Positions 5,825 to 14,028 of a stretch of 23,056 bases of DNA are shown here, piece after piece. The stretch spans positions 1 through 23,056 of IMG/VR virus record IMGVR_UViG_3300009165_000040; one strand, 5' to 3'. Under the pieces are notes generated by a model. The model saw only the letters and a list, made by a program, of their open reading frames with translations, ran no database searches and was not told the DNA's origin. The position numbers and the translations under genes are program-made. Every line of letters begins with the position of its first letter. The stretch's first letter is position 1. This DNA comes from a virus.

Positions 5825-6003
5825 CGCATTCCTCCAGTTTGTTTACGGTTGAAGTCACGTTGGCTTCTTCCGTATGAGGTTTTATACCCAGTTTGACGCA
5901 AAGTCAAGTTAGGTGCAGACTCATTGCGTTTCAAAGAAGCTGTGTCAACCCGTGGTTGGTCAGCCGTAGGTTGTGTCATGCCAGTGTTGTTTATAGCCAT
6001 CAT
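5821..6003 (-). CDS. Small protein coupled to portal gene, unknown
   Basis: The protein has 60 residues (or 59 from the second ATG). It is polar and basic towards the C-terminus ('TLRQTGYKTSYGRSQRDFNR') and has no membrane segment. Its start overlaps the portal stop (ATGA at 6000-6003) and AAGGTGG from the portal's last codons serves as SD. It probably has a head-assembly or DNA-associated role by position, but no family is recognised. Confidence 0.5.
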   Translation of the reverse strand: MMAINNTGMTQPTADQPRVDTASLKRNESAPNLTLRQTGYKTSYGRSQRDFNRKQTGGMR

Positions 6004-12200: not shown

Positions 12201-12346
12201 ATGTGATAACCCCATTGTGGCCCTTGTAGTTGACCAGGCTAAAGGATAGATAACCTATTAGATAAACACACCTAGAATATATCTAGTATACATCTTAGTC
12301 TAACCTTAGTCTATTACAGGTGTCTTAACTAAGTTATTAACAGGTC

Positions 12347-12380
12347 TGTGCATAACCAGGTCTTATCCACACTATCCACA
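12347..12380. promoter_or_regulatory. DnaA-box cluster
   Basis: TGTGCATAA (12347-12355) is the complement of TTATGCACA, and TTATCCACA lies at 12363-12371; both fit the TTATNCACA consensus. CTATCCACA (12372-12380) differs by one base. The first is opposite in orientation to the other two. The adjacent AT-rich block upstream would be the unwinding region. Confidence 0.6.
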
Positions 12381-12382
12381 GG

Positions 12383-12450
12383 GTGCACTGTTATGGTGAT
12401 TATGTGCACTGTTGTGGTGTTGTGCAGTGCAGTATTGTGCTATTGTGGTG
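12383..12450 (+). repeat. Iteron-like direct repeats
   Basis: GTGCACTGTTATGGTG (12383-12398) and GTGCACTGTTGTGGTG (12404-12419) differ at one base and are exactly 21 bases apart, two helical turns. A shorter relative GTGCTATTGTGGTG follows at 12437-12450. They directly adjoin the DnaA boxes and may bind an initiator or repressor. Confidence 0.5.
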
Positions 12451-12501
12451 CATAGCTATTTTAGAGAATGCGGCAAAATAAGGGGCTAGCATATTGGCAT
12501 G

Positions 12502-12515
12502 ATACATGCATGTAT
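12502..12515. repeat. Perfect 14-bp palindrome
   Basis: ATACATGCATGTAT is self-complementary and overlaps a TATAAA sequence (12513-12518) about 65 bases before the first early gene. If TATAAA is a -10 box, the palindrome would be a good operator; the -35 match is weak. Confidence 0.4.
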
Positions 12516-12553
12516 AAAGTGTGGTTAGACTAAAAGCATGTTGCAGATAGTAG

Positions 12554-12562
12554 TTATCCACA
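12554..12562 (+). promoter_or_regulatory. DnaA box upstream of first early gene
   Basis: TTATCCACA is a full consensus match, 22 bases before the ATG at 12584. It could join origin function or let DnaA influence early transcription. Confidence 0.5.
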
Positions 12563-12583
12563 GCAATAAACAAGGGGCATAGT

Positions 12584-12805
12584 ATGCAAGTAACAGCAGT
12601 TTATCAAGGCAGCGAGATAGGGTACGGTGAAGGCCAGCACTACATCTACGCTATAGAGGAATGCATAGACAGCATAGACTCTATGTATATAGAGAATGCT
12701 TTGCAAGATATAGAGTTATATTTTGTAGGGAATACTGAGGGAGCTACACTGCCTAAGATAGCTAACCTCACTGACTACTACTATAAAGAGAGAGAGTATT
12801 TCTAA
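12584..12805 (+). CDS. First early gene, acidic Tyr-rich small protein, unknown
   Basis: The 73-residue protein ('MQVTAVYQGSEIGYGEGQHY') is acidic, with many Tyr and Ile residues and no basic cluster or membrane segment. An AAGGGG Shine-Dalgarno lies seven bases before the ATG. It is the first gene after the control region, where phages often place small host-takeover or anti-defence proteins. Nothing in the sequence fixes a function. The surrounding DNA is unusually rich in CTAG and TAG-like tetramers compared with the structural block. Confidence 0.65.
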   Translation: MQVTAVYQGSEIGYGEGQHYIYAIEECIDSIDSMYIENALQDIELYFVGNTEGATLPKIANLTDYYYKEREYF

Positions 12806-12812
12806 AGTCTAG

Positions 12813-12874
12813 CGTATGGCCTAGCGTGCTAGGTCATGCGATATGCTTTGCATGTCAATCAATCAATCAATCAA
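12813..12874 (+). promoter_or_regulatory. Structured two-hairpin leader, copy 1
   Basis: Hairpin 1 pairs 12813-12825 with 12828-12840 over 13 base pairs (two G-U). Hairpin 2 pairs GATATGC (12840-12846) with GCATGTC (12850-12856) around TTT. Five TCAA units follow (12855-12874), then an AAAGGA site and the ATG at 12887. The element begins a few bases after the stop of the upstream gene and is homologous to copy 2 at 13694-13750. Confidence 0.65.
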
Positions 12875-12886
12875 AGGATAGTATCC

Positions 12887-13546
12887 ATGCGAACAATACC
12901 AATTCACGTTATGAATAAGTCACAGGCTAGCGTTATAGCTGGCAGTGTGACTAGCACATCTAAAATGCCATGTAAGAGTTATTCACTGCCTACAGTGGCA
13001 TGCATCACAGGCTACAAAATGAGCAAAATAGCTGGCAGCATATGTAGCACATGCTATGCGAATAAGGGTAATTATGTGCAATATGCGAACAATATTGAAC
13101 CAGCACAGCATGCCAGGCTAGATAGCCTAAACGATAGCCTGTGGGTATCTGCTATGGTGGCGCATATTGGCAGTGACAGCTATTTTAGGTGGCATGATAG
13201 CGGTGATTTACAGGGTTTATGGCATTTAGAGAAAATAGCACAGGTAGCTATTGAGACACCTAACTGTAGACATTGGCTGCCTACAAGGGAATACGCTATG
13301 GTCAAAGCATACATAGCTAAACACGGTGCACTGCCTAAAAACCTGATTGTCAGATTATCTGCCATGTACGTAGATAAACAGGTAACGATACCAGCTAGCC
13401 TACAGGGTATAGCTAACGTGGCAGTTAGTAACGTGCACACAGTGACAGCTATAGGCCACGAATGCAATTCACCGAAACAGGGTGGCAAGTGTTTAGACTG
13501 TCGTGCATGCTGGGGTACTAAACCTGTTAGCTATAAGATTCACTAA
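12887..13546 (+). CDS. Phage Gp88-like Cys-containing protein
   Basis: The start is the ATG at 12887, preceded by AAAGGA at eight bases; the frame's earlier ATG (12836) lies inside the leader hairpin. The 219-residue product has 'MPCKSYSLPTVACITGYKMS', then 'CSTCYANKGNYVQYANN' and a C-terminal 'CNSPKQGGKCLDCRACWG'. Paired CxxC and conserved 'YFRWHDSGDLQ' and 'TPNCRHWLPTRE' segments match my recollection of the mycobacteriophage gene-88 family, which keeps a Cys cluster resembling Fe-S or radical-SAM-like proteins. No function is established for that family. It sits between the two leader copies. Confidence 0.65.
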   Translation: MRTIPIHVMNKSQASVIAGSVTSTSKMPCKSYSLPTVACITGYKMSKIAGSICSTCYANKGNYVQYANNIEPAQHARLDSLNDSLWVSAMVAHIGSDSYFRWHDSGDLQGLWHLEKIAQVAIETPNCRHWLPTREYAMVKAYIAKHGALPKNLIVRLSAMYVDKQVTIPASLQGIANVAVSNVHTVTAIGHECNSPKQGGKCLDCRACWGTKPVSYKIH

Positions 13547-13560
13547 AAAGGGGGCACAGC

Positions 13561-13686
13561 ATGAAAATTGTATTTAATCGTTTACTCGGTGCATGGTACA
13601 TAGTACGTGGTGCACATCATACCCCTATAGGGGGTAGATTTGAATCTAAACAGGCAGCACAGGCATGGCTAGCTAGGGATAGATAG
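13561..13686 (+). CDS. 41-residue early peptide, unknown
   Basis: The frame starts at an ATG with GGGGG seven bases upstream, 14 bases after the Gp88-like gene, and stops just before leader copy 2. The peptide 'MKIVFNRLLGAWYIVRGAHH' continues 'TPIGGRFESKQAAQAWLARDR'. It reads as a beta-hairpin followed by an amphipathic helix, a compact layout seen in many small phage proteins. It is too short for confident family assignment. Confidence 0.6.
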   Translation: MKIVFNRLLGAWYIVRGAHHTPIGGRFESKQAAQAWLARDR

Positions 13687-13693
13687 CAGCTAG

Positions 13694-13750
13694 CCTATAG
13701 CCTAGCATGCTGGGCTATGGGATATCTACTAGTAGGTATCAATCAATCAA
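13694..13750 (+). promoter_or_regulatory. Structured two-hairpin leader, copy 2
   Basis: Hairpin 1 pairs 13694-13706 with 13709-13721 over 13 base pairs. Hairpin 2 pairs GATATCTAC (13721-13729) with GTAGGTATC (13732-13740) around TA. Three TCAA units follow (13739-13750), then GGAG and the ATG at 13768. It keeps both stems of copy 1 despite changed bases, with full compensation at two pairs of hairpin 1. Confidence 0.65.
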
Positions 13751-13767
13751 CACACATGGAGCATAGT

Positions 13768-14028
13768 ATGCAAAAACGAATGATAGCTAAATTTAACGGG
13801 ATAGATTCACGTACAGGTTACCCCATACGCAAAGGGGACGAAATAATCTATGACACAGTCACCCGTAAAGCATGGATAACGGACGAAGACGAAGACACAC
13901 CACGCCTGACGTTTCAATCACCAGATAGGTATATATCTGACGTTTATAACGTTGGTGGACGTGAATATTATCGAAATAAGCAGGGATTGTGCGTAGATGC
14001 CCCTTGCTGCGGCTGCTGTACTGTTTAA
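13768..14028 (+). CDS. Early protein with Cys-rich C-terminus, unknown
   Basis: The ATG at 13768 has GGAG seven bases upstream (GGAGCATAGT-ATG); an upstream in-frame ATG lies in the leader and is rejected. The 86-residue protein is basic then acidic ('MQKRMIAKFNGIDSRTGYPI', 'ITDEDEDTPRLTF') and beta-rich, resembling a small nucleic-acid-binding barrel. It ends 'CVDAPCCGCCTV', five Cys in ten residues, possibly a metal or redox tail. Its stop lies inside the start element of the next gene. Confidence 0.6.
   Translation: MQKRMIAKFNGIDSRTGYPIRKGDEIIYDTVTRKAWITDEDEDTPRLTFQSPDRYISDVYNVGGREYYRNKQGLCVDAPCCGCCTV

Follow-up and report, generated by a model that had tools for sequence, protein, structure and literature searches.

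The window analysed here is a 23,056-nt stretch of the tailed-phage record IMGVR_UViG_3300009165_000040. Its late genes, including terminase and portal, occupy the minus strand from position 1 to approximately 11.8 kb, and its early genes, which include GP88 (PF17338), a YqaJ exonuclease and RecT, run along the plus strand from 12584. The intergenic region between these divergent operons (12300-12580) is origin-like, with perfect DnaA boxes TTATCCACA at 12363 and 12554 and repeated copies of the motifs GTGCACTGTTNTGGTG. A near-consensus sigma-54-type promoter, TTGGCATGATACATGCA, is located at 12494-12510, upstream of the first early gene; in related loci such as L009 and L013 their own first early gene is instead preceded by sigma-70 promoter sequences (TTGACA-N17-TATAAT). 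The Cys motifs of GP88 are invariant. A structure search with its AlphaFold model (pLDDT 81) returned weak TIM-barrel, viperin-like and radical-SAM matches, none of them significant, and GP88 is possibly a radical-SAM-like protein.

Two homologous leaders precede the GP88 gene and an 86-residue gene further downstream (Table 1). The original prediction had described both as a pair of hairpins followed by TCAA repeats, five in the first copy and three in the second, and direct reading of the sequence confirmed this arrangement. The compensatory differences it reported between the two copies of stem 1 are also present, at pair 2 (G-C to C-G) and pair 6 (G-C to A-T), as are the wobble changes at pair 7 (G-U and G-C) and pair 10 (U-A and U-G). 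Stem 1 of copy 1 is realistically a 12-bp helix with a 4-nt loop. The outermost G of stem 1 doubles as the closing G of hairpin 2, and the two helices compete for this one residue. The final two bases of the stop codon of the upstream 73-residue ORF open the copy 1 element. We refer to the nucleotides right after the stop as strand U, to the 5' arm and loop of hairpin 2 as strand X, and to its 3' arm as strand D; U is the 5' strand of an alternative helix, P0, whose 3' strand in copy 1 is strand X.

Table 1. Positions of the two leaders, their structural parts and the flanking genes in the window.
Feature	Position	Strand	Remarks
Upstream 73-aa ORF	12584-12805	+	Stop TAA 12803-12805 (sequence)
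Copy 1 strand U (AAAGTCTAG)	12804-12812	+	5' strand of P0; RNAalifold, pair counts, R1-independent tests
Copy 1 P0 pairing	12804-12808 and 12810-12811 with 12842-12843 and 12845-12849	+	
Copy 1 stem 1	12813-12825/12828-12840	+	13 bp, 2-nt loop; third pair a conserved U.G wobble
Copy 1 hairpin 2	12840-12846/12850-12856	+	7 bp, loop TTT
Copy 1 linker, TCAA x5	12855-12874	+	Unstructured, G-poor
Start-codon hairpin GGAT-AGT-ATCC	12876-12886	+	Abuts GP88 ATG; arms covary in relatives
GP88 gene, downstream of copy 1	12887-13546	+	ATG 12887; PF17338, E 6e-21
Small ORF	Starts 13562; stop TAG 13684-13686	+	Sequence
Copy 2 strand U (AGCAGCTAG)	13685-13693	+	5' strand of P0; partner 13723-13730
Copy 2 P0 pairing	13685-13686, 13688-13689 and 13691-13692 with 13723-13724, 13726-13727 and 13729-13730	+	
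Copy 2 stem 1	13694-13706/13709-13721	+	13 bp
Copy 2 hairpin 2	13721-13729/13732-13740	+	9 bp, loop TA
Copy 2 linker, TCAA x3	13739-13750	+	
86-aa gene (MQKRMIAKF...), downstream of copy 2	13768-14028	+	ATG 13768; no Pfam match

A separate mini-hairpin abuts the GP88 start codon. Several early genes in related loci (e.g. L001:4294, L004:1862 and L013:5690) have the same arrangement at their start codon, GGNN-AGT-NNCC-ATG, with arms GGTT/AACC, GGAT/ATCC or GGTA/TACC. The AGT loop placed exactly at the ATG was counted in 27 cases, and any other combination of loop and offset in at most 3. A variant that includes the ATG itself, GCAT-AGT-ATGC, is found in the window at 12584 and 13768.

Among loci fetched through GP88-type genes and the 86-residue gene, we found approximately 90 distinct copies of the element in IMG/VR phages, one or two per phage and adjacent to GP88-type genes of the early operon. 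Searching with GP88 returned 85 IMG/VR contigs; the region before GP88 contains the same leader in two of these and diverged two-hairpin leaders in others. R1, a covariance model of P0 and stem 1 that excludes hairpin 2, identified 65 distinct sequences across the GP88- and 86-residue-gene-anchored loci. Strong matches to R1 lie on the coding strand; its minus-strand matches are weaker and mirror the same sites, which are nearly palindromic. One copy usually lies upstream of GP88, sometimes with a small ORF in between, and another upstream of the 86-residue gene, relatives of which often come after the second copy in other phages. Scanning whole contigs with R1 revealed no other strong sites beyond the one or two per phage.

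We also used a structural descriptor, a long stem with an abutting second hairpin, which ignores P0 and the primary motif except for its outer bases. Over 1.09 Mb of related loci the descriptor returned 123 plus-strand matches, 22 minus-strand matches and 10 matches in shuffled sequence; the structure of these leaders is well beyond chance. Seven convincing copies that R1 had missed were recovered in this way. Anchoring on a DUF7227-like protein and on diverged GP88 added 160 loci and many further copies of very different sequence. As the descriptor was less specific in these loci (178 plus-strand, 125 minus-strand and 47 shuffled matches), we retained only matches that immediately follow a stop codon and removed ten that were doubtful. 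An exact consensus pattern had no match across viral contigs; a looser version turned up the same gene neighbourhood in three more contigs. Genome G+C content of the carriers ranges from approximately 0.30 to 0.59.

Some close GP88 phages lack the element, which is thus not essential to GP88. In one phage whose GP88 gene is without it (L002), a consensus-type sigma-70 promoter sequence with a 5'-end hairpin, CTATCTAATCATAGATAG, lies directly upstream of GP88 at 5900-6001 in its place, as if promoter and element substitute for each other. Conversely, the GP88-like gene of L183, L184 and L269 is strongly diverged and lacks the WLPTREY motif, yet is flanked by the same pair of elements, so the elements are a more constant mark of the locus than the protein sequence is.

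Stem 1 and hairpin 2 are 100% paired in 12 diverse copies that have the same hairpin-2 geometry, and double changes occur in 12 of the 17 pairs. This level of pairing and covariation was reached in 0 of 500 shuffles, and slid versions of the alignment came nowhere near it; kinship among the copies was handled by redundancy filtering and permutation, and the covariation statistics are calculated without a phylogenetic null such as R-scape. The covariation also holds when hairpin 2 is tested alone. Among copies found with R1, its own arms outscored swapped arms in all of 5000 permutations (0/5000), and because hairpin 2 lies outside that model this covariation is independent of how the copies were found. 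All 12 copies, and 16 of the 21 copies of a wider set, have U.G as the third pair of stem 1, a conservation that points to RNA. A primary motif, TAR-CSTATAGC...GCTATGSGRT, is also kept in many copies. The original prediction, that selection acts on an RNA fold rather than on the sequence, is strongly supported by these many further copies, which keep the stems in related phages; it thereby withstands the refutation test that was set out with it.

Alignment of 11 copies with RNAalifold gave as the best consensus not the two hairpins but a longer structure containing P0. Strand X is common to P0 and hairpin 2, and the two helices are therefore mutually exclusive. In the predicted fold A, strand U, the 6–10 nt that immediately follow the upstream stop, would pair with X to give one long interrupted hairpin of approximately 20 bp with stem 1 on top; in the predicted fold B, X would pair with D to form hairpin 2, leaving two abutting hairpins. 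P0 is paired in 91.7% of alignment cells and has a covariation score of 0.563, compared to 0.240 in shuffled alignments, none of which (0/500) reached the observed value. As R1 contains P0, we repeated the analysis with copies found without it. In seven such copies the exact permutation test gave 9/5040, and in 29 further copies, a set that shares a few sequences with the earlier one, 0/20,000. The 18 of these 29 that R1 does not match have a mean energy of -6.29 kcal/mol for their own strands and -2.50 kcal/mol for swapped strands (0/20,000 permutations). Descriptor matches that are not preceded by a stop codon, which served as a negative control, show a small and far weaker P0 effect.

The predicted energy of fold A minus that of fold B has a median of -0.35 kcal/mol (sd 3.0) in 28 copies and of -0.60 kcal/mol (sd 2.7) in 29 copies, differences about as large as the error of thermodynamic models for 60-nt RNAs. 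Mutually exclusive folds that both covary and have nearly equal predicted energies are the hallmark of bistable RNA switches. Alternative pairings that are both conserved argue strongly, on comparative grounds, for such a switch, and covariation is seen here for each of the two states in dozens of diverged copies. Judged from sequence comparison, the element is very likely a structured, bistable RNA. It is probably a genetic switch, and it may sense whether the upstream gene is translated.

The location of the element bears on this last suggestion. The copies lie on the coding strand and begin right after the upstream stop codon. The distance from stop to stem 1 is 6–9 nt in 22 of 32 non-redundant junctions, whose upstream genes vary widely, and 14–18 nt in a few copies; hairpin 2 mostly ends 18–31 nt before the next start. 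A site just after the stop could be a mere product of compact genomes. The original interpretation is partly supported: its account of the fold stands, and it did not include the alternative helix, the fixed distance from the stop codon, the breadth of the family or the start-codon hairpin.

With a stop codon in the A site, a ribosome shields approximately 10 nt beyond the stop. Strand U lies within this stretch, and a ribosome positioned there is thus expected to favor fold B. We propose that a ribosome that has reached the upstream stop would mask U and shift the RNA to fold B, and that RNA without a translating ribosome would be free to adopt fold A. When the ribosome was simulated by masking U in silico, the mean probability of hairpin 2 rose from 0.46 to 0.74. 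Our preferred reading, to which we assign a probability of roughly 0.45, is that these leaders are translation-sensing, cis-acting bistable intercistronic RNA elements of phage early operons. The part played by the upstream ribosome as trigger, which the position of U suggests, we regard as plausible at somewhat less than even odds.

How the choice of fold would act on the downstream genes is narrowed by three observations. Sequestration of the Shine-Dalgarno (SD) sequence was rejected, as its predicted accessibility is the same in the two folds (0.43 and 0.44). An intrinsic terminator was also rejected: the linker after hairpin 2 is a mixture of A, U and C without U runs, and the match of a terminator scanner at 12813 counts T residues that belong to hairpin 2. 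The third observation is that the downstream reading frame is not conserved (see below). This leaves recognition of one of the shapes, for which RNA polymerase, RNases and phage proteins are the candidates. On balance, the output seems somewhat more likely to run through transcription or mRNA processing than through SD occlusion. A factor that acts on the early transcript might recognize the two shapes and in turn set the expression level of the downstream genes; RNA polymerase and RNases are the likelier candidates for this role, and a phage protein the less likely one. If the switch operates as proposed, the element would represent a new phage-wide regulatory RNA family, possibly one that senses translation termination between two ordinary genes, and it provides a handle on a gene family, GP88, of unassigned function. 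The predictions for masking of the U strand, a shift of the stop codon and compensatory mutants are clear and simple, and can be tested with a plasmid reporter without the phage.

Among other explanations, the one that fares best is an RNase III-type processing site in the early polycistronic mRNA, at which the fold A hairpin would be cut and the resulting mRNA segments separated and stabilized. The early mRNA of T7 has intercistronic RNase III sites of this kind, hairpins between the stop codon and SD of early genes. The early-operon location of our element, between a stop codon and an SD, and the approximately 20-bp interrupted helix of fold A would both suit such a site. We nevertheless consider it unlikely: hairpin 2 excludes fold A yet is second only to stem 1 in conservation, many copies keep a sequence motif for which RNase III has no need, and no more than one or two of the operon's junctions carry the element.

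Somewhat less probable is an antitermination RNA of the put type, in which the hairpins of fold B would bind the elongating RNA polymerase and allow it to read through early terminators. The two adjacent stem-loops in approximately 60 nt, the restriction to the early operon and the one or two copies per phage fit this explanation, and in L009, L013 and L059 sigma-70-like early promoters precede the first copy by approximately 250 nt, similar to the approximately 270 nt of HK022 putR (PMC9378689). However, R1 matches nothing in HK022, the proportions of stems I and II differ, and the second copy is located approximately 900 nt further along the same operon. Few terminators are seen downstream, and the published description of put has no such competing helix (PMC9378689).

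The element could also be an operator RNA bound by a protein, for example in autoregulation by GP88 or another early phage protein, with the alternative fold tuning the binding. Copies do cluster at GP88 and GP88-like genes, and the junction, with its conserved purine-purine mismatch and U.G wobble, has the look of a recognition site. The existence of GP88 phages without the element argues against this, as does the GP88 model, which resembles no RNA-binding protein and has only the weak, non-significant TIM-barrel and radical-SAM matches noted above; we judge an operator improbable, and a little more so than the put-type explanation.

A DNA element, such as an ESAS-like inverted repeat, a cassette boundary or a recombination site that folds as RNA by accident, is far less probable than any of these. 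Although the sites are imperfect palindromes and copies of them flank genes, they are strand-polar, G.U wobbles are conserved, including the U.G of stem 1, changes of the G-C to G-U type occur, two alternative RNA helices are maintained, and the site is fixed between the stop codon and the SD and start of the next gene. The DNA cassette boundary offered as an option in the original prediction is thus disfavored. Stimulation of stop-codon readthrough to make fusion proteins, suggested by a stem 1 that begins 6–9 nt after the stop and by the open frame from copy 2 into the next gene, is the least probable explanation and was rejected: the downstream frame is not conserved across 70 junctions (28, 23 and 19 in the three frames), 17 of the 28 in-frame junctions contain a further stop, and copy 1 has an in-frame TAG.

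Rfam 15 gave no match at the gathering score in the window, and none that was relevant in sensitive scans of both leaders and seven other copy loci. Among named phages the region of the window has no DNA match and the 86-residue gene is absent, and the GP88 regions of eight named phages contain no convincing copy. We found no description of the element in a literature search whose coverage of subscription journals is small.

In phage HK022, put consists of two adjacent stem-loops near the early promoters (PMC9378689). Antitermination by put RNA involves the zinc-binding domain of the RNA polymerase beta' subunit. The elements described here resemble putL and putR in their length of approximately 60–70 nt, their two adjacent stem-loops, their location downstream of early promoters and their one or two copies, but differ in having a stem 1 longer than stem 2, an additional exclusive helix and a placement from stop to start. 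R1 finds no site in HK022 (NC_002166), even at an E-value of 10.

The original prediction had likened the leaders to the ESAS of cluster K mycobacteriophages. This holds for location, as both are inverted repeats directly upstream of a short start-associated sequence at non-structural genes. It does not hold for pairing: the authors of the cluster K study report that RNA pairing is not supported for the ESAS repeats (PMC3203893), and it is supported here. The cluster K ESAS is a 17-bp imperfect inverted repeat with many copies per genome, and its sequence and start motif are unlike those of our element; the start codon site is the 13-bp SAS GGGATAGGAGCCC in cluster K and GGGATAGTATCC in this phage group. 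In TM4 the ESAS folds as a single repeat without hairpin 2. Membership in the SAS/ESAS group was rejected on these three grounds: start motif, RNA pairing and the missing second hairpin of TM4.

Unlike the early RNase III sites of T7, the element has a conserved primary motif and a competing hairpin, and is found at only one or two junctions. In design it parallels the ribosome-sensing trp and erm attenuators. As in these, segment 1:2 pairing alternates with 2:3 pairing through a common middle strand, segment 1 can be covered by a ribosome, and the folds are nearly balanced; of the features of a translation-sensing attenuator, exclusive folds of which one can be blocked by a ribosome are present, as judged in silico from folds and geometry. 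An effect of the fold choice on a terminator or on access to the SD was not found, as the element has no intrinsic terminator and no predicted SD occlusion (0.43 versus 0.44). It also differs in having a complete gene, translated to its usual stop, as the upstream ORF instead of a leader peptide, and in that its placement is independent of the gene. We tentatively suggest that these leaders may form an undescribed, widespread class of phage RNA switch, in which the ribosome that terminates a full-length upstream gene would, by its place on the stop codon, select between two conserved folds and thereby control the next early genes.
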